Below the pieces are notes generated by a model. That model had not been told where the DNA came from. It saw nothing but the letters and a program-made list of their open reading frames with translations, and did not search any database. 64,000 nt of DNA from Proteiniphilum saccharofermentans (GTDB lineage: Bacteria; Bacteroidota; Bacteroidia; Bacteroidales; Dysgonomonadaceae): contig NZ_LT605205.1 of NCBI RefSeq assembly GCF_900095135.1, positions 682,001-746,000 of the forward strand. Direction: 5' to 3'. The position numbers were made by a program, and so were the translations under genes. Shown here piece by piece: positions 43,064 through 64,000 of this stretch (positions are counted from its first letter, which is position 1; the number at the start of each line of letters is the position of its first letter).

Positions 43064-43103
43064 TTTTATAGAGAAGATATAGGAACCCGTAAAATTGATT
43101 GGA

Positions 43104-45978: not shown

Positions 45979-45988
45979 AGGGAGATTG

Positions 45989-48271: not shown

Positions 48272-48297
48272 GTGGCCGGGATTGGCTTATTGATTAT

Positions 48298-48346
48298 AAC
48301 ATCCTATTTCCATGAAAGATTAAATTTTAACTTGTTTTTGCTATTT
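48298..48346 (+). repeat. Left 49-bp direct repeat of the island
   Basis: Begins AACATCCTATTTCCATGAAA and ends TTTTTGCTATTT. It matches 62228-62276 at 48 of 49 positions (G at 48314, A at 62244), same orientation; similarity stops abruptly on both sides. Confidence 0.95.
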
Positions 48347-48377
48347 TATGACTTGAAATTGCATACCCTGCGTGTGC

Positions 48378-48443
48378 TTTTACCTTTTGTCCGATACTTT
48401 TTACGATTTGCCCGTTCGGTTTTGTCACGAAACCTTACTTTCG
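48378..48443 (+). promoter_or_regulatory. Operator/promoter of the export operon (copy 1)
   Basis: Contains box 1 ACCTTTTGTCCGA (48382-48394), box 2 ATTTGCCCGTT (48406-48416) and a near-consensus -7 element TACTTTCG (48436-48443). Ungapped 52/66 identity to 57442-57507, with the same distances: 24 nt between box starts and 19 nt from box 2 to -7. Confidence 0.75.
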
Positions 48444-48529
48444 TTCTTATAAAACAGGAGAGGTTTTAATCTCAAATGTATGTTTTGAAAAGAGTAACCT
48501 CTCATTCGTTTGTAAATTGGTAAAGAAAG

Positions 48530-48925
48530 ATGAAATTTTCCACACTCACGGTATCATTCTCCATAGTGGCACTTCTATGCCTGCTCTTTTTGTTTTCCTG
48601 TGACCGAGACGAAGAAGAACCGGTTTATCTGGGGAAATGGGTGCTTGAGAAAGCGGAGCCGCGCATTGACGACAGTTACTTCCAGTCTTACATCCATATT
48701 AAGGAGGACAAATCGTTCGAGCTTTACGATAGTAGCCGGGAGCTGTTGATAACCGGTCGTCCCGAGCATTTCTCAGTGAAGGGGTTCAAGCTCACACTTA
48801 CGGATCCCGCCAGCGGGGAGAGATATCTCTTTACCATTATCAGCCGAAAAGAAGACATGCTAATACTGCGCACCTCTGTTTTCGGTAACGAGACTACATT
48901 AACGATGCACAAAATTTCCAATTAA
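48530..48925 (+). CDS. Lipocalin-like lipoprotein
   Basis: A 131-aa lipoprotein; the signal ends LLFLFSC with Cys24 lipidated, followed by DRDEEE, which suggests surface or outer-membrane sorting. The rest is a small all-beta domain opening with YLGKWVLEKAEP and continuing in strands such as SFELYDSS, FSVKGFKLTLTDP and LILRTSVFGNETTLTM, the style of Bacteroidota lipocalin-like lipoproteins that bind hydrophobic ligands. It is the first gene of the export operon, 13 nt before the TolC gene, so a role in handling the lipidic product or pump cargo is a reasonable inference but is not proven. Confidence 0.7.
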   Translation: MKFSTLTVSFSIVALLCLLFLFSCDRDEEEPVYLGKWVLEKAEPRIDDSYFQSYIHIKEDKSFELYDSSRELLITGRPEHFSVKGFKLTLTDPASGERYLFTIISRKEDMLILRTSVFGNETTLTMHKISN

Positions 48926-48938
48926 ATCCCTCCCCGCT

Positions 48939-50255
48939 ATGCCTTTCACTGGTATAATACGAAACACAAAATATTTGCAACTGGCCGTCATTGCTCTCCT
49001 CCTGTCGTTGACCTTCTTCCCGGCAAATGCGCAGGGCGACTTCACGCTGGAGGGATGTCGGGCGATGGCCCGCTCTGTGTTCTCGGCTGAAATGCAGAGA
49101 GAACAGATCTCCCAATCGGCTGCCTTCCGACAGCAGCTCCTGAAAAAAATGATCACCCCGGATGTGTCGGCCTTCGCTTACGGGGCTTACCTCTCGGAAG
49201 TACCCGATCCCACTGCTGCCTTCGAATATGCATTTGATGTCTCTCCCGCTCCGCATGAAAGGCTCAAAGCCGGACTGTTCCTCTCCCAACGGATATATGA
49301 TGGAGGAGAGTACCGGTTGAAGAAGGAAGAAATCAGATTGGACAGAGATATAGAAGAGCAAAAGGCGGAAGAGTCATTACTGCAAATCGACAATCTTGTC
49401 GATGAGGTTTTCTTCGGAATCATACTTGTCCATAAGGGATTGCAAGCGCTCGAAACACAACGGGAGATCGTTTCTCTGGCATGGAACGACGTACAGTCGC
49501 TTGTCGGAGAAGGAAAATTCCTTAAAAAAGATTTGCTCCAAGCCGAAATGGCATTGATTGATGTGGAGACCCGCATCGAAGAGTTGAGAGCCGAAGAGCA
49601 TAGATACCGCCGGATACTTTCGGAATTGCTGGGGCAGGAAATTGGCGCCGATGACCGGTTGGTCGACCCTGTCTGTGATGATCAAGGAGAAGAATTTACC
49701 GATCCGGCTTTTCTTCAACTCGATCTGCAAGAGGCGAAAATTGAACTGACACGTGATCTCTCTCGTACGGCAGCGCTGCCCAAAGTCCGTCTTTTCGGCT
49801 CGGTGGGCTATGGCAAGCCCGGACTGAACTTTTTTGAAAACCGTTTCGATTGGTTTGGCGGTGTAGGACTGCTGCTACAAGTGCCTATCACCGTATGGCG
49901 CGATCATGCTCGCGAAGAAAAAATCCTGCAAATCGAATCGGACCGGTTACGCATATACCGCAACAACCTCCAAAAAAAGCGCGATATAATCAAAGCGGCA
50001 CATTCGGGAGAAATATACCGGTATGAGACCCTTGAAAATCGACAGATTATTCTCCTTGAAAAGAAGGGGCAAATCAGGCAACAGATGGAGATCTTGCTGA
50101 GGGAGGGAGAAGTCTCTTTGTCGGACTATCTTGCTGCCCTCGGCGAAGAAACCGCTGCGAAGATCAAACTCCAGCTCTATGCCATCCACAAGACGAAAGA
50201 GACAATAAAACGGAACCGTATGCTTGTTAACCACTCAAATTATTCTGAAAAATGA
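48939..50255 (+). CDS. TolC-family outer membrane efflux channel
   Basis: A 438-aa outer-membrane factor forming the exit duct of a tripartite pump. Signal peptide about residues 10-32 (ending FFPANAQ). Long alpha-helical, charged segments dominate (for example REIVSLAWNDVQSLVGEG and KKDLLQAEMALIDVETRIEEL), interrupted by strand regions such as FEYAFDVSPAPHERLKAGLF, giving the two-repeat pattern of the family. Slightly shorter than E. coli TolC. Its stop overlaps the next start by 4 nt (ATGA), coupling it to the HlyD-like adaptor. Confidence 0.88.
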   Translation: MPFTGIIRNTKYLQLAVIALLLSLTFFPANAQGDFTLEGCRAMARSVFSAEMQREQISQSAAFRQQLLKKMITPDVSAFAYGAYLSEVPDPTAAFEYAFDVSPAPHERLKAGLFLSQRIYDGGEYRLKKEEIRLDRDIEEQKAEESLLQIDNLVDEVFFGIILVHKGLQALETQREIVSLAWNDVQSLVGEGKFLKKDLLQAEMALIDVETRIEELRAEEHRYRRILSELLGQEIGADDRLVDPVCDDQGEEFTDPAFLQLDLQEAKIELTRDLSRTAALPKVRLFGSVGYGKPGLNFFENRFDWFGGVGLLLQVPITVWRDHAREEKILQIESDRLRIYRNNLQKKRDIIKAAHSGEIYRYETLENRQIILLEKKGQIRQQMEILLREGEVSLSDYLAALGEETAAKIKLQLYAIHKTKETIKRNRMLVNHSNYSEK

Positions 50256-51169
50256 GAAAAAACGCACTCCAGAACCTGCTTGCCGCATTTATAATCATTT
50301 TGTCGAGTTGCTCGGAGGCAGATCGACCGGCAGCTTATGGGCATTTCGAGGCACGTGAATGGATCGTTTCCGCTGCCGGAAGTGGTAAAATCCTCTGGCT
50401 CGACATAGAAGAGGGCGATGCGCTCACGAAAGGGCAACCGGTCGGTCAGATCGATACCGCGGAACTGTCACTGCAGAAGATCCACCTCGACAATCAAATT
50501 GTGAATCTCCGTGCCTCGTTACCGGATGTGGGACTACAGATCGGGACGTTGAAAGAGAAAAAGAATGTCGCTGAAAAAGAGTACCTGAGGGTTGATAGAT
50601 TGGTGCAATCGGGTGCTGCCGACCGAAAAAAACTGGACCAGATTGAGGATGAGCTGGCGCTTGTAGACCGGCAGATTGCTGCCGCATTGTCGTCACTGCA
50701 CCGTGAAACGGCTGCCATCCTCGCCCAGATAGAAGCACTCGAAATGCAACGCGATATCACTACGCACCGCATCCAAGAGTGCGCTATCGTGAATCCCGAG
50801 AAGGGAAGAGTGGCGTTGCAATTTGCCAAGAGGCACGGATTTACCGCTTCCGGGCATCCACTCTATAAACTGATTGACACTGGTGAAATGACCCTCCATA
50901 GTTGGTTCCCGGGAGAGCTGCTTCCACAACTCTCAATCGGAGGCGAAGTGAAAGTGGCCATAGACCATCCCTACGGGAAAATGAAATATCATGTCGGGAA
51001 GATCTGCCATATCGCCGAAAAACCGGAATTTACACCAGGCCAGGTGCAGACCCGGCAAAACCGGGCTCTATTGTTCTATCATGTGAAGATCAACGTGACA
51101 AATGATGGTACGATTAAGCCGGGGATGCCGGCCGAGATTTATCTCCTGAATTTATCCCCTGAGGAATGA
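50252..51169 (+). CDS. HlyD/YbhG-like periplasmic adaptor, lipoprotein
   Basis: A 305-aa membrane-fusion protein joining the inner-membrane ABC transporter to the TolC channel. N-terminal lipobox LSSC (Cys20). The first half-lipoyl motif (GSGKILWLDIEEGDALTKGQPV) is followed by a helical hairpin of about 100 residues (LDNQIVNLRASL ... AALSSLHRETAAIL) and the second lipoyl half (CAIVNPEKGRVALQFAKRHG), then a beta-barrel domain ending with IKPGMPAEIYL. This order is that of YbhG/EmrA-type adaptors. It overlaps both neighbours by 4 nt. Confidence 0.88.
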   Translation: MRKNALQNLLAAFIIILSSCSEADRPAAYGHFEAREWIVSAAGSGKILWLDIEEGDALTKGQPVGQIDTAELSLQKIHLDNQIVNLRASLPDVGLQIGTLKEKKNVAEKEYLRVDRLVQSGAADRKKLDQIEDELALVDRQIAAALSSLHRETAAILAQIEALEMQRDITTHRIQECAIVNPEKGRVALQFAKRHGFTASGHPLYKLIDTGEMTLHSWFPGELLPQLSIGGEVKVAIDHPYGKMKYHVGKICHIAEKPEFTPGQVQTRQNRALLFYHVKINVTNDGTIKPGMPAEIYLLNLSPEE

Positions 51170-52089
51170 TTGAGGCGCGACACATATCGAAACATTTCCG
51201 CAGCCGGCAGGTTCTGTGCGACTTGAACTTTTCCGTCGAAAAGGGTGAGATCCTGTGCCTGGTAGGCGCTAACGGTGCGGGGAAGTCGACCCTCTTCAAT
51301 ATCATCGCCACGCTTGACGATGAATATGAAGGTCTTCTCCAAATCCGCGGGGTAAATGTACGGGAAAATAAACGGCAGGTGAGGGAGATCATCGGCTATG
51401 TGCCGGGACGGTTTTCCCTCTATGGCGAGCTGACCGTTGCAGAGAACCTCTCCTTTTTTGCGTCGGCTTATGGTTGTAATCCATACGAAGCACATCAGCG
51501 TTCTTCCGGCCTGTGGCGCCATCTGGAGGCCTCTTCACGCAAGCAGGCCAAATACCTGTCGGGCGGGATGAAGCAGAAATTGGGAGTATGCTGTGCCCTG
51601 GCGCATGACCCGCACCTGCTCCTGCTCGATGAACCGACCACCGGGATTGATCCCTTTTCGCGCCACCTGTTATGGGAAGAGCTTAGATCGCTCCAGAAAA
51701 GTGGGATGACCATTCTTGTCAGTACGCATTATCTCGAAGAGGCGGCTATTGCCGACCGTGTTTTGTTCATCCATGAAGGGCGACAACTGAAGCTCGGTCC
51801 TCCTGATAAGATAGTGGCTTCATACCCCCGGCAGCTGTTTACCCTCGGTGGGTATCCCGTACAGCCATTGTTTCACTCGATGAAAGAGCTGCCGGGCGTC
51901 ATCAACTGTTACATCCGTGGCGAGCATGTTTATATCACCGTTGACGAAAATATTTTGCTTGAGACGATAGGGGTATTCGCTGCCGGAAAAGGATTCGAAA
52001 AAGTGGAGATAGCACAGCTCCCGGCCGACATGGAAGATGTCTTTATCGATTGTCTGGCCACGAATGGAGGAGGGAGCATCTCATGCTAA
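51166..52089 (+). CDS. ABC transporter ATPase 1 (YbhF-like)
   Basis: A 307-aa nucleotide-binding subunit powering the export pump. Walker A GANGAGKST at about residues 34-42, signature LSGGMKQK, Walker B LLLLDEPTTGID, and the H-loop STHYLEEA are all present. A C-terminal extension of about 80 residues after the catalytic domain (PPDKIVASYPRQLFTLGG) is typical of drug-export ABC ATPases. In E. coli YbhF two such domains are fused; here they are separate genes side by side. Start overlaps the adaptor gene by 4 nt. Confidence 0.93.
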   Translation: MIEARHISKHFRSRQVLCDLNFSVEKGEILCLVGANGAGKSTLFNIIATLDDEYEGLLQIRGVNVRENKRQVREIIGYVPGRFSLYGELTVAENLSFFASAYGCNPYEAHQRSSGLWRHLEASSRKQAKYLSGGMKQKLGVCCALAHDPHLLLLDEPTTGIDPFSRHLLWEELRSLQKSGMTILVSTHYLEEAAIADRVLFIHEGRQLKLGPPDKIVASYPRQLFTLGGYPVQPLFHSMKELPGVINCYIRGEHVYITVDENILLETIGVFAAGKGFEKVEIAQLPADMEDVFIDCLATNGGGSISC

Positions 52090-52799
52090 ATATTCGTACC
52101 GATAGGCTGACGCGCGATTTCGGCACACTCAGGGCTGTCGATAATGTCTCGATTGAGGCTGGTCGGGGTGAGATCATCGGCTTGCTGGGTGCCAATGGCG
52201 CAGGCAAGTCGACATTGATACGGATGCTTTGCGGGCTGGTAAAGCCCACTTCCGGAAGGGGTGAAGTGGTAGGGTTTGATATCGTCCGGCAAGGAGCGAA
52301 GATCAGACGAAAAATAGGTTATATGGGGCAGCAATCGACGCTGTTTGAAGATCTGACCGTACGTGAGAACATCGAATTCTATGCGGCCGTTTACGGGATG
52401 AGCCGCCGCGAAACCCGTAACCGGATGAACGAGTTGATGCACGATCTCCGTATTGGACGCTATGCCGATAAACGGATAGCCACCTTACCCTCGGGCTGGC
52501 GACAGATGTTGGCTTTCTCAACGGCGATGTTGCACCGTCCCGAAGTGGTTTTCCTCGACGAACCGACCAGCGGCCTCGACGCCATCAGCCGTCGCGAGCT
52601 ATGGAACCGCATCTCTCTGGAAGCCGGAACAGGCACGACCGTGATGGTAAGTACCCATTACCTTGACGAAGCGTTCTACTGCACCCGCCTCATCATCTTG
52701 GAGGAGGGAAAGGTGAGGGTATGCGGAAAGACGGAAACAGTAAAATCCGCCGGAGGCGCCGACGGGCTGACACACTATTTTATTCATCACGAAGCATGA
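52083..52799 (+). CDS. ABC transporter ATPase 2
   Basis: A 238-aa second nucleotide-binding subunit. I start at 52083 (MLNIRTDRLTRDF), overlapping the previous stop by 7 nt; an ATG at 52050 would add an unlikely extension. Walker A GANGAGKST, Walker B VVFLDEPTSGLD and H-loop STHYLDEA are intact, but the signature reads LPSGWRQM in place of LSGGQ, a divergence that often marks one degenerate site in a heterodimeric ABC pump. Ends with a 4-nt overlap into the first permease. Confidence 0.92.
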   Translation: MLNIRTDRLTRDFGTLRAVDNVSIEAGRGEIIGLLGANGAGKSTLIRMLCGLVKPTSGRGEVVGFDIVRQGAKIRRKIGYMGQQSTLFEDLTVRENIEFYAAVYGMSRRETRNRMNELMHDLRIGRYADKRIATLPSGWRQMLAFSTAMLHRPEVVFLDEPTSGLDAISRRELWNRISLEAGTGTTVMVSTHYLDEAFYCTRLIILEEGKVRVCGKTETVKSAGGADGLTHYFIHHEA

Positions 52800-53917
52800 A
52801 AAGGGGGAAAAATATAGTGGCCATTGTACGAAAGGAGGCGCTTCTTATCTGGCGTGATAAGTTGAGTGTAGCGATTCTTTTCCTCTTACCCGCGCTGATT
52901 CTCCTCGTTTTCGGTGTTGTTTTATCCTTCGAAATCAAAGAGCTCCATATCGCCGTCATCAACGAACGGCACGAGCCGGCCGTAGAACGGCTATTCGCCC
53001 AGATAGAGGCGTCGAGCAGCTTTCATATAGTGAAACGGCTTCACCATTCCGGCGAAATAGCCGCTGCCTTTGGGAGGGATGATATCCGGATGGTGATCGT
53101 CGCCCCCGGCGGCTTCACCCGCCAATTAGCAACCGGACAATATCCCGATATATCTCTTTTTATTGATGCTTCCGATCCCAAGCTGGCGCTGGCGGCTACG
53201 AGTATCGCCCGTAAGATAATAACGGCTTTCGTACAGGAGGAGCTCCCTGAAATGAGGCCGCTGCAAAAGCAGCCGGTAGCGCGCTTCCTCTACAATCCCG
53301 GATTGCGGAAAGAGACGGCGTCGGTTCCCGGGTTGATGATGATTATTTTTATTCTTATTTCTTCTATCATGCTTAGCATCAGCTTTGTCGGGGAAAAAGA
53401 GCGGGGGACTGACAAGATGTTGGCGATGACGCCCTTTTCAACTTTCGATATCGTGTTGGGGAAATCGCTGCCTTACCTCGCCATTACGATTTTCCACATC
53501 TTCTCGGTGTGGGGTGTCAGTTATTTTATTTTTCATATCCATATAGCAGGCAACCCGATACTTTTCTTGGCGCTCAACCTGCTGTTCGCAGTCAACTCGA
53601 TGGCCTTCGGCCTGTTGATCGCTTCACTGGTGGATCGGCAGCTTGAAGTGGCTATCATCTGCTGGTTGTTCCTTTTCATTCCGAACGTCTTCATGTCGGG
53701 CTTCATTTTCCCGCTCATGTCGATGCCCGCTCTTTTCCGGTGGGTCGCATGGATACTACCCGGCACGTCGTTCATCGAAGCATATAGAAATATTGTTTTT
53801 AAAGGTGTAGGGTTGCAAGGCAATGCGCTGCCGTTCGCATTACTCCTATCTCAATTGGTGCTGCTTTTGCTGGCCTCCCGTAAAGGACTGGTGAAGCGGT
53901 CGGGAGGATACAGATGA
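52796..53917 (+). CDS. ABC-2 type permease 1
   Basis: A 373-aa membrane subunit (start MKRGKNIVAIVRKEALLIWR at 52796, overlapping the ATPase stop). One N-terminal helix (about 25-46) is followed by a periplasmic domain of about 120 residues (HIAVINERHEPAVERLF), then five C-terminal helices between about 185 and 365, with the ABC-2 motif MLSISFVGEKERGTDKMLAMTP before the second group. This is the YbhS/YbhR layout. Forms the translocation pathway with permease 2. Confidence 0.9.
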   Translation: MKRGKNIVAIVRKEALLIWRDKLSVAILFLLPALILLVFGVVLSFEIKELHIAVINERHEPAVERLFAQIEASSSFHIVKRLHHSGEIAAAFGRDDIRMVIVAPGGFTRQLATGQYPDISLFIDASDPKLALAATSIARKIITAFVQEELPEMRPLQKQPVARFLYNPGLRKETASVPGLMMIIFILISSIMLSISFVGEKERGTDKMLAMTPFSTFDIVLGKSLPYLAITIFHIFSVWGVSYFIFHIHIAGNPILFLALNLLFAVNSMAFGLLIASLVDRQLEVAIICWLFLFIPNVFMSGFIFPLMSMPALFRWVAWILPGTSFIEAYRNIVFKGVGLQGNALPFALLLSQLVLLLLASRKGLVKRSGGYR

Positions 53918-54993
53918 ATATATTGTTTGCCGCCATAAAAAAAGAGATCAGGCAACTGAAACGCAATGTTTCGTTGCTGGTGATCATTGGTGCCAGTCCA
54001 TTGCTCATCATGGGTATTATTCCGTTTTCGATAGAGAAGCGGGTGAAGATCAGCCTCTCCGTTGTTGATTGCGACAATAGTGCTGCCAGCCGTATCATGA
54101 CCTATCGAGTGAAAGCTTCTCCCTATTTCGTGAAGGTGACGGAAATGGAGAGGGTGGAAGAGGCGCTCGATCGGGTCAAAGAGAACAAAAGTGATATGGT
54201 GATGATACTCCCCGAAAAGATGGAGCGTGACGCCGGAGAAGTAGAGGCAGCACCACTGAGTATCGCTCTTGATGGTACGCACACGCTGAACGCCCAAAGC
54301 CACTTTGCCTTCCTGGAGCAAATGCTGCAATATGATCTCTCCGAGGGGGAGATCCCCTCTCAGCTACACCAAAACCTGCTCTTCAACCCCTCCCTCGACG
54401 GGCGGATGTGGTTTATTGTCTCATTGCTGGTTTTGCTGGTCACACTTATCGGTGCCTGCCTTGTCACCCTCGATATAGTGAGCGAAAAAGAGTCGGGTAT
54501 ATGGGAGCAGTTACAGGCAACGCCGCTTTCTCTTACCGTTTATATCGTCTCGAAGATGGTTGTATTCGCGGTGGCCGGCCTGTTTGTCCTGGGTGTCGGC
54601 CTACTTCTATGCCACTCTTTTTTTGGCTTTGCCTTGGCGGGACGGTGGTATGTTTTCTGGCTGTTGGCATTAGCGTTCCTGTGGCCAATGCTCATGATTG
54701 GTATTGGTATTGCATCGATATCCAAGAACCAGGTGCAGGCGATATACTTGCTGGTCTTCGTGCTCCTGACGATTATCCTGATGAGCAGCATGTTCTCCTT
54801 TCTGAATGCTATGCCTGGCTGGGCCAGGGCGACGCGGTTCGTCAACCCGCTCTATTTCATGCTCGATGCTTCGCGGCTGGTAGCGTTGAAAGGGTTCTCG
54901 CTTGCCGATGTGTGGTCGCAGTTCGCGGCACTGTGCATCCAGGGTGCGGTGCTATCGGTCTTGATCTTCCGGCGGATGGAACGGACAAAATAG
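53914..54993 (+). CDS. ABC-2 type permease 2
   Basis: A 359-aa partner permease, overlapping permease 1 by 4 nt. Same layout: N-terminal helix (about 22-40, LLVIIGASPLLIMGIIPF), periplasmic domain (about 45-165) and five to six helices from about 167 on. The ABC-2 signature LVTLIDIVSEKESGIWEQL-like block appears as LDIVSEKESGIWEQLQATPL. With permease 1, two ATPases, adaptor and TolC channel it completes an apparently functional tripartite exporter. Confidence 0.9.
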   Translation: MNILFAAIKKEIRQLKRNVSLLVIIGASPLLIMGIIPFSIEKRVKISLSVVDCDNSAASRIMTYRVKASPYFVKVTEMERVEEALDRVKENKSDMVMILPEKMERDAGEVEAAPLSIALDGTHTLNAQSHFAFLEQMLQYDLSEGEIPSQLHQNLLFNPSLDGRMWFIVSLLVLLVTLIGACLVTLDIVSEKESGIWEQLQATPLSLTVYIVSKMVVFAVAGLFVLGVGLLLCHSFFGFALAGRWYVFWLLALAFLWPMLMIGIGIASISKNQVQAIYLLVFVLLTIILMSSMFSFLNAMPGWARATRFVNPLYFMLDASRLVALKGFSLADVWSQFAALCIQGAVLSVLIFRRMERTK

Positions 54994-55014
54994 TGATAAA
55001 TAATATAAATTAAA

Positions 55015-55593
55015 ATGAGAAACAGTTACGAAACATTTCATGCCTTATGCCAAAGTAGAAGAAGCCACCGGAAATTCAGCCCCGAGCCGGTACCCGAAGA
55101 GATGATCGCGCAAATATTGGAGACCGCCGCTACGTCACCGTTTGCTTCAGGCAGGAAGAACTGGAAAATATTGGTTATCAGAGATAGAGATGTGTGCCGG
55201 GAGATGGTGGAGGCGATCCGACGGCAAACCGAACAAATGGCGGCCGACATGGAGCCGGAGATGGCGTCGATGTTCAGGCGTTATGTCTCAAACTTCACGC
55301 AGTTCGCAGATGTCTCCGCTTTATTGCTCCCCATATTCCGGGTCGCACCCGTAATGCGATCTCTCTTGCGCGACAGGCTGACACCCTCCCTGCAATGTTG
55401 GGAGCGCGACAATGCCGTGAAGTCGATTTCGTGTGTAGCCATGCTTATTCTGCTGGCTGCCGAGAGCCTGGGATTGGGTGCATGTTACATGACCGGCCCG
55501 CTCATCGCCGGTGAGGAGTTAGCACAGATTACCGGACTCTCTGCCGGACAAGAAATCGGCGCTATCATTCCAATTGGTTACCCGTTAAAATGA
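55015..55593 (+). CDS. Nitroreductase-family flavoprotein
   Basis: A 192-aa FMN-dependent oxidoreductase of the nitroreductase family. FMN-contact motif SRRSHRKFSPEPV at the N-terminus, AATSPFASGRKNWKILVI, and the C-terminal LLAAESLGLGACYMTGPL. The protein is compact, without the extra domains of characterised NfsA. It starts 21 nt after the permease gene and its stop overlaps the next gene by 4 nt, so it belongs to the export operon. In biosynthetic clusters such enzymes can dehydrogenate or reduce a product, but the substrate here is unknown. Confidence 0.88.
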   Translation: MRNSYETFHALCQSRRSHRKFSPEPVPEEMIAQILETAATSPFASGRKNWKILVIRDRDVCREMVEAIRRQTEQMAADMEPEMASMFRRYVSNFTQFADVSALLLPIFRVAPVMRSLLRDRLTPSLQCWERDNAVKSISCVAMLILLAAESLGLGACYMTGPLIAGEELAQITGLSAGQEIGAIIPIGYPLK

Positions 55594-56252
55594 TCATGTC
55601 GATGGAATTATTTGTCCACTCCTTTGTTTTCAACAACAAGAAAGAGAACAGCTATCTGCTGTGGAACCGGGCAGGAGAGTGTTTGCTGGTTGACCCGGGC
55701 TGCTCTACACCCTACGAGCAGGAATTGCTTACCGGATTCCTCTCCCGGAACAATCTCTATCCGAAGAGACTATTGCTTACGCATGGCCATTTTGACCATG
55801 TTGCCGGAGTACCATTCCTGATTCAAGAATATGGTTGTGAATGTTGGATGCACTCTGCTGAAGAAAAAGAACTCCAGCTATCCCGGACGTTGGCACCGAT
55901 GTATGAGTTTGAGACAGTTGAAGAGTTTCAAGTAGATCATCATTACGACGACAGCACCCAACTCTCTTTTGGTGGAATCTGCCTGAGAGTCATCCATATT
56001 CCGGGGCATACCGATGGTTCTGTCTGCCTGTTTGTGCCGGGCGGTCCTTACCTGTTCGCGGGTGATGCGCTGGTGAAAGGCAGCCTGGGCTTTGTCAATA
56101 ACAGTTATGGCGAGGTGCTGGCCCATCTCCAAAAAAAGATCTACCCGCTTCCGGATGAGACGATCATCCTTTACGGCCACGGACCCTCTTCCACGCTGGC
56201 TGAAGAGAAACAGACGAACCCCTTTTTCCATCGGATGAATCGGAAAAAGTAA
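55590..56252 (+). CDS. Metallo-beta-lactamase-fold hydrolase
   Basis: A 220-aa glyoxalase-II-like hydrolase. Metal ligands are visible: THGHFDH (HxHxDH), HIPGHTDG, GDAL with the bridging Asp, and YGHGPSS near the C-terminus. No signal peptide, so cytoplasmic. Enzymes of this fold hydrolyse thioesters among other bonds; next to an acyl-carrier-protein pathway a thioesterase role that releases the product is attractive, though this is inference. An alternative start at 55596 is possible. Last gene of the operon; it converges with the regulator gene 15 nt away. Confidence 0.88.
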   Translation: MIMSMELFVHSFVFNNKKENSYLLWNRAGECLLVDPGCSTPYEQELLTGFLSRNNLYPKRLLLTHGHFDHVAGVPFLIQEYGCECWMHSAEEKELQLSRTLAPMYEFETVEEFQVDHHYDDSTQLSFGGICLRVIHIPGHTDGSVCLFVPGGPYLFAGDALVKGSLGFVNNSYGEVLAHLQKKIYPLPDETIILYGHGPSSTLAEEKQTNPFFHRMNRKK

Positions 56253-56267
56253 TATCAATAAAGTAGA

Positions 56268-57362
56268 TCATTCTCTTTTCTCTGCCCGTCTCATTGACTT
56301 TGCACTACCAAAGCCGCTCTGTAGCGCAACCTCTTCTTTCGATAAACCGGGCTGTTCGGCGGTAAGACGACGAGCGTGTGCAAGACGGTGGCCGTTGACG
56401 AATTGCGAGAAGTTAACGCCGATATCGTTGTTGATCACCCGTGAAATATAGGTGCGGTTTGTACCTATTTCCCGCACTAAATCCCAAATGGTAAGATTTT
56501 CATTCAGATAAATCTGCTTATCCGTGAAAAGAGTTTCTATCTTCATTTGTAATGAACGCTGCTGTGCCGTAATTCCTTTGGCCGGAGGCTCTTCGTCCAT
56601 CTCATCATCCTTTCCACAGGTAAGCAATACTTGCCGCTGGCTGTTTCCGAGCAAGCCGATCCAGAACAGCATGCCTGTCAAAATCACCGACGGCGCGATC
56701 AGAAAAGAACTGTTCCCGGCAAAATTCTCCTTGCTGATTATCTCCATAACGATACAGGTGAAGATCGTAACCAGCAAAGTAACGTTCAACCACTGCACTT
56801 TACGCAACGAATATTCAGAGTTGGAATAAAAATTGGCAACCTTTTCGCTATTACGTCTTACCGCTATGATCGACAGCGACATGTATGCCATACCTTGCGT
56901 GACAAATACCACATTGACGAGATGTCTCATAATTTTCTGGTATAGGAAAATTCCGGTGACAGGGGGTTCCGATAGAGTAGGATACAAGAAACCGATGTAA
57001 TCCGCTTTCGACATGAAAAGTGTCCCGATGCCATAGAGTAGAAAAATAACAACCGGTAGTATCAGGAATTTGTAGTGTTGCCTCAACGAAAATCTGGGAT
57101 CAATTGCCAGCAACCGTACGTAGATATAATAGAGAGGAAAGGTCAGTAAATGGGCAAGGTAGTAGAGAGAGTCGGCATAGATATATAATTCAGGCAAGGG
57201 CAGATAGTACAATGTGTGAGATATGAAGATGATGAGCGACACGATCATAAACTTACCTAGGAACCATTTCGGCTCGTTTCCTCGCCTTTCCACAATATTA
57301 AGCACCACCGCCCAAAACAGGGTGGTATAGAGAGGACTTAATAAGAGAAATAGTTTGAACAT
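56268..57362 (-). CDS. Membrane-bound AraC-family regulator
   Basis: A 364-aa protein with about seven hydrophobic helices in residues 4-240 and a cytoplasmic AraC/XylS DNA-binding domain at about 280-364. The first HTH is ENLTIWDLVREIGTNRTYIS; the second begins EVALQSGFGSAKSMRRAEKRE and stops there, about 12-15 residues before the family's usual end. In the last codons the normal Phe is Glu, and one lost A would explain the early TGA. It is transcribed divergently from the fatty-acid operon and faces the operator boxes, so I infer that it senses an envelope signal and controls both island operons. Confidence 0.85.
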   Translation of the reverse strand: MFKLFLLLSPLYTTLFWAVVLNIVERRGNEPKWFLGKFMIVSLIIFISHTLYYLPLPELYIYADSLYYLAHLLTFPLYYIYVRLLAIDPRFSLRQHYKFLILPVVIFLLYGIGTLFMSKADYIGFLYPTLSEPPVTGIFLYQKIMRHLVNVVFVTQGMAYMSLSIIAVRRNSEKVANFYSNSEYSLRKVQWLNVTLLVTIFTCIVMEIISKENFAGNSSFLIAPSVILTGMLFWIGLLGNSQRQVLLTCGKDDEMDEEPPAKGITAQQRSLQMKIETLFTDKQIYLNENLTIWDLVREIGTNRTYISRVINNDIGVNFSQFVNGHRLAHARRLTAEQPGLSKEEVALQSGFGSAKSMRRAEKRE

Positions 57363-57387
57363 ATTGATAATATCTAATAGCCCAAGG

Positions 57388-57395
57388 CAAAATTA
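57388..57395 (-). promoter_or_regulatory. -7 promoter element of the AraC-type regulator gene
   Basis: Minus-strand TAATTTTG, exact consensus, 26 nt before the ATG at 57362. The operator boxes begin about 30 nt upstream, so the regulator could also control itself. Confidence 0.5.
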
Positions 57396-57425
57396 CAAAA
57401 AAATAATATAATAAATTATTTTTTT

Positions 57426-57507
57426 ATCTTTTGTCCGGATGTTTTACCTTTTGTCCGAATGTTTTTACAATTTGCCCGTTGGATTTAGCTTTGCATCCTT
57501 ACTTTTG
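57426..57507 (+). promoter_or_regulatory. Operator/promoter of the acyl-product operon (copy 2)
   Basis: Three direct boxes: ATCTTTTGTCCGGAT (57426-57440), ACCTTTTGTCCGAAT (57446-57460) and ATTTGCCCGTT (57470-57480), then -7 TACTTTTG (57500-57507, exact consensus). Boxes spaced 20 and 24 nt suit AraC-type direct-repeat binding. The last two boxes and -7 align without gaps to 48378-48443. Confidence 0.8.
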
Positions 57508-57556
57508 TTTTTTGAGAACAATATTTATTAACTTCATAATTTAGATAAAGCAAACT

Positions 57557-58090
57557 ATGAGAACAACGATTATTAAATTTTTATGGTTAATACCTGTGAT
57601 CTTATTGGCAGTATCATGTAGCCTAATCGAAAAACTTGACGACGTTGATTTCGACGTCACGATGCCGGTTACTTTCACGGTGATTGAAACGGCCAGTTCC
57701 CCATCGGGCAAGTCTTATTCCGATTCCGAAACGCTGAGCGTAGCCAATGACCCCGACGTGTTGAAATATGCCAAAAAAATTAAAAAATTTAAGGTGAATA
57801 AGGTTACTTACTCCATCTCGGGTGCCAATCCGGCCACGATAAAGCTAACCGACGGAAAAGTTGCGACCGGTAACGGAAAAACTATCGCAAGTGCTGCCAC
57901 CATCGACCTGTCGAATACCTCTGAAACCAATCTGACAACCGACAATAGTGGTATCTCCGAACTCTGTAAATCGTTACTTGAAAACAAGCAAGAGCAGATA
58001 ACACTCCAAGGAACGCTCTCATCAACTCCCGTCAGTTTCACGGTAAGATTGAAGTTTTATCTAACGGTCACGGCCAATGCTCTCGACTAA
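57557..58090 (+). CDS. Hypothetical lipoprotein of the acyl-product operon
   Basis: A 177-aa lipoprotein with lipobox LAVSC (Cys21). The mature part is beta-rich and Thr/Ser-rich (MPVTFTVIETASSPSGKSYS, ISGANPATIKLTDGK, and a final VSFTVRLKFYLTVTANALD), suggestive of an Ig-like or amphipathic beta fold. I do not recognise a family. It is the first gene after the operator/promoter at 57426-57507 with a leader of about 45 nt, and its stop overlaps an ATG of the next reading frame. Its position says it serves the same system, perhaps in the periplasm or outer membrane. Confidence 0.7.
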   Translation: MRTTIIKFLWLIPVILLAVSCSLIEKLDDVDFDVTMPVTFTVIETASSPSGKSYSDSETLSVANDPDVLKYAKKIKKFKVNKVTYSISGANPATIKLTDGKVATGNGKTIASAATIDLSNTSETNLTTDNSGISELCKSLLENKQEQITLQGTLSSTPVSFTVRLKFYLTVTANALD

Positions 58091-58146
58091 TGAATTTTAC
58101 AAATCTGACTTTACAAATATCATTTCATCAATTTAAATTCAACAAA

Positions 58147-58788
58147 ATGAAAAAGCTAAGTTTATTAATTGTCGCTTTATTACTTTTTACAGTAGCAGGT
58201 GTCCAGGCACAATCAGAGGGTGGCGATTTTGCCAAAAGAGGTGCAATCTTACTTAATCCTCAGTTGCTTAATGTGTCATATCAGAGCATGAAAATCAACA
58301 GCTCCGATAGTGATGCCAGCGATGGGGAGAAGTTATCGCAACTGGGTTTATCCGTCTCAGGTGGTTATGCCATTGCCGACAACCTGTTTATTCTTGCTCA
58401 GGTAGCCGGACAGTCATTACAATTGGGAAGTGATGATGCAACCAAAGTCTCTTTTTTCACTATCGGTGCTGGCGCCCGTTATTACATTGGTAAATTTTTC
58501 CTGGGCGGAGGTGTGCTTGCAAATAACGGTAAGATAAACATTGGTGGCTATTTTGACGACTTTGACGATATGGAGGTGAGCGGAGATGACCTCAGCACAA
58601 CCATTATCGGATATCGTGCTGAGGCAGGATATGCCATATTCCTGACTCCGTCGGTTGCCCTTGAACCATCGGTCAGTTATGGAGGCAAACTTACGGGAGG
58701 TGAAATAAAAGTCGGCGGTGAAAAAATGGACTCCAAAATTAAATACAACCAATTTGGTGTCAATCTCGGAGTAAGCATCTTCTTCTAA
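58147..58788 (+). CDS. Small outer-membrane beta-barrel protein
   Basis: A 213-aa porin-family barrel. I start at 58147, where a signal peptide begins (MKKLSLLIVALLLFTVAGVQ); an in-frame ATG at 58090 would add 19 residues before it. Alternating hydrophobic strands with glycines follow (LSVSGGYAIADNLFILAQVAG, FFTIGAGARYYIGKFFLGGG) and the protein ends in VNLGVSIFF, a terminal aromatic as required for Bam insertion. Eight to ten strands are likely, so a sensor, anchor or lipid-handling barrel rather than a large pore. Function in the system unknown. Confidence 0.85.
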   Translation: MKKLSLLIVALLLFTVAGVQAQSEGGDFAKRGAILLNPQLLNVSYQSMKINSSDSDASDGEKLSQLGLSVSGGYAIADNLFILAQVAGQSLQLGSDDATKVSFFTIGAGARYYIGKFFLGGGVLANNGKINIGGYFDDFDDMEVSGDDLSTTIIGYRAEAGYAIFLTPSVALEPSVSYGGKLTGGEIKVGGEKMDSKIKYNQFGVNLGVSIFF

Positions 58789-58794
58789 AAAAAC

Positions 58795-58842
58795 AACGGA
58801 AAGAAGGGGTTGTTTTTATTCTGAAAACGGCTCCTTTCTGTT
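58795..58842 (+). terminator. Imperfect hairpin between barrel gene and ACP gene
   Basis: AACGGAAAGAAG (58795-58806) pairs with CTCCTTTCTGTT (58831-58842) with one G-U and one mismatch, followed by TTGTTG. It may lower read-through into the enzyme genes. Confidence 0.35.
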
Positions 58843-58867
58843 TTGTTGAATCACAATTGTAAGCAAC

Positions 58868-59248
58868 ATGGAGATCGAATATAAATTAAGGGAATTACTG
58901 ATGCCGGTGCTGGGCATTGCTAACATCGAGGAGATACAACCTTCACATGCGCTTGTGAACGACCTGGGAGCCGAAAGCATCGACTTTGTTGAAATACTTT
59001 ACCTTATTGAAACCCATTTCGGGGTGAAAATACAGATACAGGAAATCACCATGGTTGACTATGCTTCGGTGGATACGTCCGTCGATGGCAAGGTAACCCA
59101 GGTGATCGCCGAGAAACTGAATCGCGACTTCAAGACCGATAAGTTCCATGAAGGGCAATCCGTACGCGATATTTACGAAAATTTCACGGTAGGTGATTTG
59201 TCCACTATCATCGCGTTGAAAACAGAGAAGCCAAAACAGGAAGCATGA
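58868..59248 (+). CDS. Acyl carrier protein, long form
   Basis: A 126-aa acyl carrier protein. The phosphopantetheine site is Ser37 in NDLGAESIDFVEILY, a good match to the DSxD-type motif (here ESID). The usual ACP is about 80 aa; this one carries an inserted segment of about 35 residues (DYASVDTSVDGKVTQVIAEK) before the last helix, as in some dedicated polyene-type ACPs. No phosphopantetheinyl transferase gene is in the window, so the modification must come from the host enzyme. Its stop overlaps the dehydratase start by 4 nt, showing dedicated partnership. Confidence 0.9.
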   Translation: MEIEYKLRELLMPVLGIANIEEIQPSHALVNDLGAESIDFVEILYLIETHFGVKIQIQEITMVDYASVDTSVDGKVTQVIAEKLNRDFKTDKFHEGQSVRDIYENFTVGDLSTIIALKTEKPKQEA

Positions 59249-59724
59249 GGTTTTATTTAATCGACCGGATTACGGAAGTTGCTCCGGCAAAATATGTAGA
59301 GGGATTGAAGCTCATCTCGATGAGCGACGATGTTTTTGACGAACATTTTCCCGGATACCCGGTTTTTCCCGGTTCCTTAATCCTGGAAGGCCTTGCCCAA
59401 ATGAGTGGATTATTTTTTGAATACTGCCTCAAGCAAGAGGGGGTAACCGGTAAACGGGCCGTGTTGACATTGGTCAACCGGATGAAATACCGTCGCCTTG
59501 TTATCCCGGGAGACTGCCTGCATTACCGTGCCGATGTGAAAGCATTTTACCCGGATGCGTACGCGACGGTAACCGTAAAAGCCACGTGCGAAGGGAAACG
59601 ATACGCTGAAGGCGAACTGTTTTTCAGTTTCTTAAACGACATCATGGATGAAGAAATGCAAAAAACAACCGATCGGCTGATGACACTGGCTTTCCGTAAC
59701 GCGCGGGTAATTTCGGAGAAATGA
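59245..59724 (+). CDS. FabZ-like 3-hydroxyacyl-ACP dehydratase
   Basis: A 159-aa single hot-dog-fold dehydratase. The catalytic His34 lies in DEHFPGYPVFPGSLILEGLA, with Glu48 as the second catalytic residue, followed by QMSG as in FabZ/FabA. It removes water from 3-hydroxyacyl-ACP to give trans-2-enoyl-ACP. No enoyl reductase gene is present in the operon, so double bonds made here could be kept, which would give an unsaturated or polyene-like chain (inference). Overlaps by 4 nt with both neighbours. Confidence 0.9.
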   Translation: MRFYLIDRITEVAPAKYVEGLKLISMSDDVFDEHFPGYPVFPGSLILEGLAQMSGLFFEYCLKQEGVTGKRAVLTLVNRMKYRRLVIPGDCLHYRADVKAFYPDAYATVTVKATCEGKRYAEGELFFSFLNDIMDEEMQKTTDRLMTLAFRNARVISEK

Positions 59725-60314
59725 GAGTGATATATAAGAAATATTTGCCCAAGGAGGAGATACCGGTTTATGACTACGCTCGAAACCGGAAATTGGTAAA
59801 ATATTATACCCGCGAGACCATGGCTGCAGTCGTGTCTGTCGCCTGCCTGTTTGAAGGGCGCGCTCCTGACCCCTGCATGCCCTTTTTCTACTCATCGGGT
59901 GAAACCGAAATGATTGATCTCTATCGCGGCATTGGTGACAGGATTACCAGCGTGGAAAAGGATTTCAGGTCAACCTGGTTTGTCGAGAATGTGGCCGTGT
60001 TGATCTCTCCGCTGGAACGGTTCAAAACGATGCGCAACACCACCGCCTGTTTAGTGGCCATCGAAAACGGATTGAAAGGGGATAATGGCGTGTTGTTAGC
60101 CTCGGCGTCCGGATTACTTTATTCGGCAATGTTCACCGAAACGGAGGGTACCGTACTTATTGGCGCCGGAAAATTGTATGCTGACGGAACGGTGGAATGC
60201 GGGTTTGCCGAAGGATTGCCCGCCGAATTTGCGACACACCCGTTACTCGACAGCCCCGGAGATGCCATCGAAATTTTTCAACCTTCAAAATCACCCGCTG
60301 TATGGCCGTCGTAA
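59721..60314 (+). CDS. Short ketosynthase-like protein without active site
   Basis: A 197-aa protein resembling the N-terminal-type ketosynthase family (PF13723) found in aryl-polyene clusters: AVVSVACLFEGRAPDPCMPF, FFYSSGETEMIDLYRGIGDR, and LVAIENGLKGDNGVLLASASGLLYSAMF. None of the Cys-His-His ketosynthase residues are present. By analogy it might be a chain-length or stabilising partner of the full ketosynthase that follows with a 13-nt overlap. This is homology-based and moderately sure; other possibilities remain open. Confidence 0.65.
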   Translation: MRVIYKKYLPKEEIPVYDYARNRKLVKYYTRETMAAVVSVACLFEGRAPDPCMPFFYSSGETEMIDLYRGIGDRITSVEKDFRSTWFVENVAVLISPLERFKTMRNTTACLVAIENGLKGDNGVLLASASGLLYSAMFTETEGTVLIGAGKLYADGTVECGFAEGLPAEFATHPLLDSPGDAIEIFQPSKSPAVWPS

Positions 60315-61498
60315 TCACCGGGTACGAAATACAATCGCCGTTGGGATGTACGTGCGAAGAAAGCTTTGCCAGCCTCCAGGCCGGTCTTTCCCGCGTGGGA
60401 AACATCCAAAGCTTCGATGCCGAAGGATTTCCCTTCAAGGCTGCCGGAGAGGTGAGAGAAAACGGGCAGGTGGTTGCAACGCCGTCGAATATTGACAGGA
60501 AAGTCTATTTTTTGGAGCGGGCACTCAGTCAGCTCATCGAAAACACCACCCTCGATGCACGCTACACCTCAGCCGAACGGATCATGAACATTGGTACCGG
60601 GATTGATTATATCGATATCGCTTCCTTTTTCAACCATCGGGAATACCGGCAACCGCCGGGATCGGAAACCACGTACTACAAAACGGCGGCACAAATTAAA
60701 AAAATGGCCTTCGAAAAGCAGGTATCCGGAGGCTGTAACATCTTTACAGCTGCTTGCGTGGCATCAGCCCAAGCCATCGGGCTGTCCTACCGGATGATCA
60801 AGCGCGGGATGAAACGCGCCATCCTGACTGGTGGCAGCGATTCGATGATCTCGTACGTGAACTACATGGGTTTTTATCTGCTTGGCGCCATGTCCACCGA
60901 TCCCAACCCGGCCACCGCCTGCAAGCCTTTCGATCGCCGGAGAAGCGGCACCGTGCTGGGCGAGGGTGCCGCCATGCTGTTGCTTGAAGAGAGCAGCTTG
61001 GCACGGGAAGAGGAGATACTGGCCAAAATTGTCGGTTACGGCTGCACCATGGATGCCTATGCCATCACCGACCCTGACCCGTCGGCACGGCAATTGGCAA
61101 AAGCCATCCGCTTGGCGCTGGAGGACGCGGCCCTCGCACCCGGGTTGATCGATTGTGTTCATCTCCACGGTACCGGAACGCCGAAAAATGCTCCTGCCGA
61201 GTACCTGGCTCTTCGCCAGGTGTTTGGAGAGCGTGTGGCCGAGCTGCCTGTCTATTCCATGAAAGGACAGACCGGTCACCTGGTTGGTTCGTGCACTGCC
61301 GTTGAGATGCTTGCTGTAATGCATTCCATCAGGGAGCAGGAGGTACCACCCACGCTGAACTTCACGGAGAGTGATCCGGAAGCACCGCTGTTTGTAGTGC
61401 GCGGAAAACCACTTTCCTTGCCAATAAGATACGTGCTGAAGTTGAACTCGTCGTTTGGCGGGCACAACACAGCCATCATCATTGAGAAATACCAATAA
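60302..61498 (+). CDS. 3-oxoacyl-ACP synthase (ketosynthase)
   Basis: A 398-aa FabF-type condensing enzyme; the ATG at 60302 (MAVVITGYEIQSPLG) is the natural start, while an in-frame ATG at 60197 lies within the preceding gene. The catalytic triad is complete: Cys152 in FTAACVASAQ, His289 in HLHGTGTPKNAPAE and His326 in KGQTGHLVGS. The Cys motif departs from TACSS. Elongates acyl-ACP with malonyl-ACP; neither an acyltransferase nor a malonyl loader is in the operon, so those steps rely on the host fatty-acid enzymes. Confidence 0.93.
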   Translation: MAVVITGYEIQSPLGCTCEESFASLQAGLSRVGNIQSFDAEGFPFKAAGEVRENGQVVATPSNIDRKVYFLERALSQLIENTTLDARYTSAERIMNIGTGIDYIDIASFFNHREYRQPPGSETTYYKTAAQIKKMAFEKQVSGGCNIFTAACVASAQAIGLSYRMIKRGMKRAILTGGSDSMISYVNYMGFYLLGAMSTDPNPATACKPFDRRRSGTVLGEGAAMLLLEESSLAREEEILAKIVGYGCTMDAYAITDPDPSARQLAKAIRLALEDAALAPGLIDCVHLHGTGTPKNAPAEYLALRQVFGERVAELPVYSMKGQTGHLVGSCTAVEMLAVMHSIREQEVPPTLNFTESDPEAPLFVVRGKPLSLPIRYVLKLNSSFGGHNTAIIIEKYQ

Positions 61499-61519
61499 GA
61501 GATATATTACCGGCTGATT

Positions 61520-62227
61520 ATGGGACAAATTGTCATTACCGGCGCGAGCTCCGCAATTGGATGGGCAATCGCTGAAGAGTTGTCGACAATCGGGAAACCC
61601 ATGCTTTTACAGGGGACCCGAAAGCACGAACTGCCGTTGAATGAACTGTCGGCAAACGCGGAGTTCGTGATGGCCGATTTTTCCTCGCCTGCCGCGCTGG
61701 AACACTTTATCTCCCGGTTGACCGATGTAGATATTTTAGTCAATGCGGCAGCCTGCACGATTACCGAACTACTTCCGCAAACCAGGGACGAGTCGATCGA
61801 CAAGATGATTGCCGTCAACATTGCCGCACTGGTAAAAATCTGCAAGGCAATTATTCCACCCATGTGTGCCAAAAGGTCGGGTGTCATCGTCAACATCACC
61901 TCGGTAGCAGCATCGAAGGTCTATCGGGGACAAAGTGTTTACGCCGGGACGAAAGCGTTCTCGGAGGCATTCTCGAAAGGAATTGCTGCCGAGTATGGTC
62001 GGAAAGGAGTGCGTTGCAACTGCGTGGCACCGGGATGCATCAATTCAGGAACATTAAAGCTCCTGGCCCATATTGCCAAAGACAAAATTAATCAATCCAA
62101 TGCCATGGCGAAGATGGGGGAACCGCGGGATGTGGCTGCCGCTGTCGCTTTTCTCTGCCGGGAAGAAAACGCGTTCATCAACGGCACGGTACTGCACGTC
62201 GACGGGGGACAGTGGATCGGTCTCTGA
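61520..62227 (+). CDS. FabG-like 3-oxoacyl-ACP reductase (SDR)
   Basis: A 235-aa short-chain dehydrogenase. Cofactor motif ITGASSAIG (the usual last glycine pattern GxxxGxG is GASSAIG), NAA at about 75-77, and catalytic residues Asn100, Ser128 (NITSVAAS), Tyr141 and Lys145 (YAGTK) are all there. C-terminal GTVLHVDGGQWIGL is typical of FabG. Expected to reduce 3-oxoacyl-ACP with NAD(P)H, completing the ketosynthase - reductase - dehydratase set. Ends one base before the right 49-bp repeat, so the island edge coincides with the end of the operon. Confidence 0.92.
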   Translation: MGQIVITGASSAIGWAIAEELSTIGKPMLLQGTRKHELPLNELSANAEFVMADFSSPAALEHFISRLTDVDILVNAAACTITELLPQTRDESIDKMIAVNIAALVKICKAIIPPMCAKRSGVIVNITSVAASKVYRGQSVYAGTKAFSEAFSKGIAAEYGRKGVRCNCVAPGCINSGTLKLLAHIAKDKINQSNAMAKMGEPRDVAAAVAFLCREENAFINGTVLHVDGGQWIGL

Positions 62228-62276
62228 AACATCCTATTTCCATAAAAGATTAAATTTTAACTTGTTTTTGCTATTT
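62228..62276 (+). repeat. Right 49-bp direct repeat of the island
   Basis: Begins AACATCCTATTTCCATAAAA and ends TTTTTGCTATTT; 48 of 49 identical to 48298-48346. It starts immediately after the stop codon of the FabG-like gene, and beyond it the nifJ leader begins. Confidence 0.95.

Positions 62277-62411: not shown

Positions 62412-64000
<1,589 letters not shown>

Follow-up and report, generated by a model that had tools for sequence, protein, structure and literature searches.

How did a block of 17 genes come to lie between otsAB and nifJ, two genes that adjoin each other in related genomes, and why is it bounded by two almost identical copies of a 49-bp sequence? This question is raised by a locus in Proteiniphilum saccharofermentans, whose 4,414,963-bp genome forms a single contig. 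A 64,000-bp stretch of it, hereafter the window, was analysed, and all coordinates refer to this window. The two repeats (left copy, 48298..48346; right copy, 62228..62276; both on the forward strand) enclose 13,881 bp of DNA (48347..62227). An earlier reading, made from the sequence alone, had described the arrangement as a module inserted at, or excised by recombination between, a short site. The comparisons reported here indicate that the block was indeed inserted, and it is probable that a 13.9-kb island was acquired horizontally in the lineage of this species, entered the intergenic region between otsAB and nifJ and was accompanied by a duplication of 49 bp of its target.

The two copies of the repeat have the same orientation and are identical at 48 of 49 positions, the sole difference being a G in the left and an A in the right copy at position 17, and their starts lie 13,930 bp apart, as the sequence-only reading had stated. 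Its description of the edges as sharp holds as well: judged by eye, the DNA adjoining the left copy does not resemble that adjoining the right copy, on the inner or on the outer side, and the first base of the right copy directly follows the TGA stop codon of the last block gene, which encodes a short-chain dehydrogenase/reductase (SDR). Under a simple composition model, about 1e-18 such repeat pairs are expected by chance in 64 kb. A genome search with a 169-bp query around the left copy matched two places, namely the two repeats, and a longer 193-bp query added one place, which is a promoter repeat inside the block and not the 49-mer; thus, neither query found a third copy in the genome. A widespread intergenic repeat, a possibility that the sequence-only reading had itself raised against its interpretation, is ruled out by the presence of the 49-mer at two genome places. 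The promoter repeat is also the only other family of direct repeats of at least 35 nt in the window (seed 14). The 49-mer contains no inverted repeat (974 of 1000 shuffles were as good) and no hairpin better than those of shuffled sequences, by which an integron-like folded site is ruled out. It matches the E. coli dif sequence at 14 of 28 positions, which was equalled by 1150 of 2000 shuffles, and a Xer/dif module was rejected. Terminal inverted repeats of the block were not found, the inverted ends agreeing at 10 of 40 positions, and no transposase family is present among the 17 proteins, which rules out a transposon. Pfam searches recognised no recombinase family among the 17 proteins either, in line with the earlier remark that no such gene is visible.

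Comparison with related genomes shows that the block is missing from the corresponding place in the genus. Genomes and loci of the same-genus and wider samples are denoted by G- and L-labels, respectively, and G000 is the genome studied. A nifJ query against 39 same-genus genomes matched 33, including G000, and six had no match. All 32 nifJ loci outside G000 were examined, 29 of them at first and three later (L073 of G048, L074 of G049 and L075 of G001). At 29 of the 32 loci, otsAB lies beside nifJ with no block between them, so that not one of the 29 relatives having both genes carries an island there; the opposite outcome, a block present in all relatives and no empty site, did not occur, and the module may be regarded as inserted. 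The two genes are divergent, and the distance from the otsAB start to nifJ amounts to 203-533 bp in 27 relatives and to ~256 bp in L074 and L075. The longest intergenic region (533 bp; L025 and L026 of G021 and G010) is enlarged by ~200 bases between the site and nifJ, in which GTTTTCGATAAG-like stretches recur; this enlargement seems to have arisen independently of the block. No match to otsAB was obtained anywhere in the assemblies of G054, G014 and G048 (completeness 78%, 76% and 99%, respectively) with a query that was positive in G021, and these three genomes are therefore uninformative on the block. In their loci (L029/L076 of G054, L036/L077 of G014 and L073), nifJ is present and otsAB is not its neighbour; by eye, the gene next to nifJ in L073 resembles an asparaginase, like the one at 38012-39055 of the window, as if the otsAB stretch had been lost.

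In a single-gene tree of nifJ (870 columns), G000 groups with G012 (96/89), and the pair is joined by G021 and G010 (100/98); all three relatives have empty sites. The gene for p197, a half-size ketosynthase-like protein that served as block marker, is found in one of the 39 genus genomes, G000 itself. The G+C content of the block is 49.2%, compared with 42.3-45.3% in 69 overlapping windows of the same size, all of them to the left of the block. A gain in the G000 lineage is a far simpler explanation of this distribution than repeated loss. The two copies in G000 differ at one of 49 positions, whereas the best relative differs at nine, and at the differing position 17, G021, G010 and G007 have the G of the left copy. 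It is therefore probable that the insertion took place after G000 had separated from these relatives, but with a single change to rely on, the error of this dating is wide, and the copies may have undergone gene conversion.

The origin of the repeat can be read from the empty sites. The left neighbour of the block (45989..48157, minus strand) is a trehalose gene, otsAB, which matches NF011071 with 995.8 bits (cut-off 634); the sequence-only reading was right that these functions adjoin the block, but they are encoded by a single fused gene and not by separate otsA and otsB genes. The right neighbour, nifJ (62427..63998, plus strand, cut by the window end), bears the name given in that reading and not one from a family search. 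Both genes are transcribed away from the block, and the site is therefore a divergent intergenic region. The otsAB-nifJ intergenic regions of 27 relatives were aligned with the joined flanks of G000, while L074 and L075 were compared by pattern matching only. The site is present in all 27 aligned relatives, with 23-40 of 49 positions alike and conserved boxes TATAAC, AAAGATTA and TTTAA, outside of which the 49-mer is weakly conserved. In ungapped scoring of the 27 regions, the site reached 24-40 and the next-best place 21-25 of 49 positions. The TATAAC box, exact in 25 of the 27 relatives, straddles the left edge of the repeat and adjoins only the left copy in G000: there it starts at 48295, the left copy is preceded by TAT, and the repeat runs into a complete conserved element upstream of otsAB. 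The right copy begins three bases inside the box (TGA-AAC) and runs into the native upstream flank of nifJ; preceded by TGA instead of TAT, it is a truncated element. Judged from this alignment, the 49-mer is native chromosomal DNA and part of a conserved element upstream of otsAB, which is probably the otsAB promoter region. When the flanks of G000 are joined, the 49 bp are followed by 25 bp up to a GTGAAC anchor, and the counts are identical in G021 and G007; in most other relatives, this spacing deviates by a few bases. Measured against G021 and G007, no base was lost through the insertion, and the gain consists of the block and a second 49-mer.

These observations can be accommodated by a simple course of events. 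A gene island would have entered the divergent otsAB-nifJ intergenic region by horizontal transfer, and the 49 bp would have been duplicated at the moment of insertion instead of being brought in by the island, either because a long staggered break was filled in or because the template was switched in the course of repair. A plain insertion within the 49 bp would split the element, whereas duplication would leave the otsAB element whole and the conserved sequence before nifJ untouched. Since otsAB and nifJ both keep their upstream sequences, the insertion would be tolerated, which may explain its survival. Furthermore, a site brought from elsewhere would be unlikely to match a poorly conserved intergenic sequence better than the relatives do, and the agreement at 48 of 49 positions therefore points to duplication of the resident sequence or to re-entry from the same species.

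Such an event has a name, insertion with long target duplication, and was reportedly first described by Nobusato et al. (2000). The locus has in common with this class an insertion relative to a related genome, that is, empty sites in relatives, and a flanking, target-derived repeat that is longer, at 49 bp, than the usual transposon duplications. The absence of a transposase and of terminal inverted repeats, which belongs to the pattern as we read it, is seen here as well. In published accounts, long target duplications are tied mainly to restriction-modification genes, frequent but not obligatory companions, and to Helicobacter pylori (PMC3031569, PMC1643837, PMC3154945, PMC4978471). In contrast to those cases, the present one concerns a biosynthesis and export island in a member of the Bacteroidales with a repeat of 49 bp, and there is no restriction-modification gene among its 17 genes, a difference that weighs against placing it in this class. 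Several other points also count against target duplication. The comparisons include one strain of the species and thus could not reveal the insertion as a polymorphism, and the age of the insertion, which hangs on one substitution, is loose. The copy may have arisen by fill-in, template switching or some other route. The right inner edge falls exactly at a stop codon, which is neat for a random break. Finally, L072, a homologous cluster in another genome, contains four weak repeat families, one of which, 27 nt in length, is represented to the left as well as to the right of the cluster by copies that agree with a middle copy at 70% and 85%; this was taken as chance.

The repeats could alternatively be the attL and attR sites of a cis-mobilizable island or a decayed integrative element whose recombinase has been lost or is encoded elsewhere in the genome, which we regard as unlikely. 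Integrative and conjugative or mobilizable elements (ICE/IME) and cis-mobilizable islands have direct repeats at both ends and leave a one-copy empty site. The block shares both features and, with its foreign-looking cargo, has the classic anatomy of such elements, and the genome holds nine tyrosine-recombinase matches, eight of them above the Pfam cut-off. However, none of the nine lies inside the block, the closest being ~184 kb away (serine recombinases were not searched genome-wide), and no conserved att target can be recognised: the site is intergenic, and at most 40 of its 49 positions are alike in relatives, so that an att copy arriving with 48 of 49 matches could only stem from the same species. 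No other 49-mer is present in the genome. In addition, the target is unoccupied in all 29 relatives in which otsAB lies beside nifJ, and inverted repeats, hairpins and dif likeness do not exceed shuffles. Together with the native character of the 49-mer and the lack of a bracketing repeat in two homologous clusters (L071 and L072), these results did not sustain the part of the sequence-only reading that saw a special site for integration or excision in the 49-mer, and a dedicated recombination site appears less likely than target duplication. Excision via the repeats may nevertheless occur. The microcin H47 island of E. coli is comparable to the block in its size of ~13 kb (12.6 kb), its direct repeats, the lack of a recombinase gene, a product-making cluster and empty sites in other strains (PMC3191183, PMC5426353). 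The H47 repeats are extensive, imperfect and widespread in E. coli, and PCR demonstrated that the island excises and integrates (PMC3191183, PMC5426353). The repeats of the block, in contrast, are near-perfect, native and occur twice in the genome; since the recombinase-less H47 island excises and integrates, the block may be mobile as well.

Re-entry of DNA from within the species offers another route to near-identical repeats. A circle consisting of the block and one 49-mer, derived from another strain of the same species, could have re-entered at the resident copy by homologous or RecA-independent recombination, and the latter has been described between short direct repeats in E. coli K12; but the repeats would then still need an origin, in an earlier strain, and we consider this route decidedly unlikely. 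That the right copy functions as a second promoter or control element, instead of being left over from the insertion, is highly improbable: the 49-mer does cover a conserved element upstream of otsAB, but at the right copy the TATAAC box is without its TAT, and such an element would be directed back toward the SDR gene. Scarcely credible is an ancestral block whose absence from the relatives would be due to recombination between the repeats. Deletion between repeats would leave one exact copy, and it has been reported for three other species that direct repeats flank ~10% of the small variable segments, for which deletion was named as one possible cause (PMC2884548). This scenario, however, would require the block to have been lost separately in G012, in the G021/G010 group and across the rest of the genus; moreover, the single copies of the relatives differ from G000 at 9-26 positions, compared with one between the G000 copies, the G+C content is distinct, and p197 is absent from the 38 other genus genomes. 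An ancestral block was thus rejected on the empty sites, the nifJ tree and the distribution of p197. A phage, plasmid or viral vector was rejected as well: p197 had no match among 72,556 records of plasmids and 50,697 of phages, a search of viral contigs confirmed no locus, and a 32-base core was without an exact viral match. Horizontal acquisition with duplication of the 49-bp target thus remains the probable explanation.

The cargo itself comprises 17 genes, nine and seven on the plus strand and one, encoding an AraC-type regulator, on the minus strand. The sequence-only reading had spoken of two operons and their regulator; the gene set and the regulator stand, while the grouping of the plus-strand genes into two operons, likely as it is, follows from their spacing. 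Operon 1 begins with a small putative lipoprotein, assigned by eye (48530..48925), similar proteins being found in three of four homologous loci, and continues with a TolC-type outer-membrane efflux protein (48939..50255; PF02321) and an HlyD-type adaptor (50252..51169; PF13437). Pfam searches identified the products of the next four genes as two ABC ATPases (51166..52089 and 52083..52799) and two ABC-2 permeases (52796..53917 and 53914..54993). The operon ends with a nitroreductase-family flavoenzyme (55015..55593; PF00881) and a metallo-beta-lactamase (MBL)-fold hydrolase (55590..56252; PF00753). The regulator gene (56268..57362, minus strand) encodes a C-terminal HTH_18 domain and an N-terminal part that is hydrophobic by eye. 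A match of some kind to this regulator exists in 28 of the 39 genus genomes, including G000, many of them to the DNA-binding part only, and a second AraC-type regulator ~1 Mb away (G000:C1:1750694-1751803) is 30% identical to it over nearly the whole length. To the left of the block, 43095-48157 of the window encodes a GH15 protein with a trehalase-like N-terminal domain, a mechanosensitive channel and the fused otsAB, an apparent osmotic-stress group.

Operon 2, also on the plus strand, starts with a small putative lipoprotein, again assigned by eye and without a Pfam family (57557..58090), and an outer-membrane beta-barrel protein (58147..58788; PF13505), followed by an acyl carrier protein (ACP; 58868..59248), a FabZ-like dehydratase identified by family search (59245..59724), p197 (59721..60314), a FabF-like ketosynthase (60302..61498), whose closest solved structures are FabF enzymes, and an SDR ketoreductase (61520..62227), which ends with the TGA codon directly adjoining the right repeat. 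The enzyme motifs sought are present in the ACP (Ser site), the dehydratase, the ketosynthase (Cys-His) and the reductase; p197 lacks the Cys and His motifs sought. No Pfam or NCBIfam model matched p197 at 1e-3. When six p197 proteins were scanned at E<=10, two matched FabF (best 0.12), and the top match overall was an unrelated oxidase model (0.086); a profile search against solved structures remained without a significant match (best 0.63). A predicted model (pLDDT 75, six sequences) had its best Foldseek matches to 7f28_C and 7f28_A, with E-values of 7.5e-5 and 3.1e-4 and low TM-scores of 0.42 and 0.36. These chains are presumably ApeC, to judge from their lengths of 198 and 203 and from a passage of the published description, and given the low TM-scores the weak fold likeness of p197 to this chain-length factor is a lead.

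With a ketosynthase, a half-size ketosynthase-like partner, an ACP, a dehydratase and a ketoreductase, the block resembles aryl polyene and other highly reducing type II polyketide clusters, as described for ApeO-ApeC (PMC8358021). It differs from aryl polyene clusters in having one ACP and one full ketosynthase, and it adds an ABC exporter, a nitroreductase and an MBL-fold hydrolase. The aryl starter enzymes of aryl polyene clusters are an ammonia-lyase and a ligase; neither these families nor an acyltransferase family were found among the 17 block proteins. A cispentacin-type cluster was rejected, as the dehydratase and ketosynthase match the AmcE and AmcF models far below the cut-off. The block thus looks like a self-contained cluster, equipped with a regulator, for ketosynthase-type biosynthesis and ABC export; most likely, a reduced and perhaps polyene-like acyl compound is made by it and exported.

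Related clusters are rare. p197 was found in four of 393 genomes of an order sample and in one of 395 genomes of a phylum sample, G000 being counted in each. A pattern-limited scan of genome_contigs yielded five p197 loci, all in metagenome-assembled genomes, four of Bacteroidales and one of Bacteroidia; three of the five appear to be genomes already matched in the order sample, and six cluster loci, G000 and the five in genome_contigs, are known in total from the collections searched. The homologous clusters have most genes in common at 27-63% identity, with changed gene order and orientation, and those of L068 and L069 adjoin a clpB-like gene (by eye). The check for bracketing repeats covered L071 and L072, since the fetched stretches of L066, L068 and L069 do not contain both cluster ends plus flanks. 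In neither of these two loci is the cluster enclosed by near-identical direct repeats, and L071 has no direct repeat of at least 25 nt; a flanking repeat as a property of the cluster was rejected on these two loci.

The expression of the block is probably coordinated from within. A 79-bp promoter repeat (48378-48456 and 57442-57520, 77% identical) lies ahead of both operons and holds tandem operator-like sites. Sites resembling TTTTACCTTTTGTCCG with at most three mismatches start at 48378, 48399, 57422, 57442 and 57463: two of them, 21 bp apart, are located upstream of operon 1 (48378..48414, plus strand), and three, in steps of 20 and 21 bp, between the regulator gene and operon 2 (57422..57478, plus strand). 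The shared promoter repeat with its tandem sites suggests that one regulator probably controls both operons. Since the five sites are the only ones in the window and all belong to the block, it seems to carry its own regulon. At the same threshold, the homologous clusters of L071, L072, L068 and L069 contain one, zero, zero and zero sites, respectively, and the operator-like site is thus not conserved among the clusters.

Taken together, the phenomenon is real, well bounded and of an already known kind, and the locus is an unusually clean case of it: one insertion with genus-wide empty sites, base-exact edges, a young repeat and a cargo other than restriction-modification genes. It is tempting to speculate that Bacteroidales gain biosynthetic islands by a general, recombinase-free route that duplicates ~50 bp, keeps the promoter of the neighbour and permits scarless exit, which would make such islands reversible cassettes; we give this generalization little credence. 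The case draws attention to a rare ketosynthase-export cluster, and the entry of large gene blocks into chromosomes without a recombinase becomes testable in a biogas bacterium.

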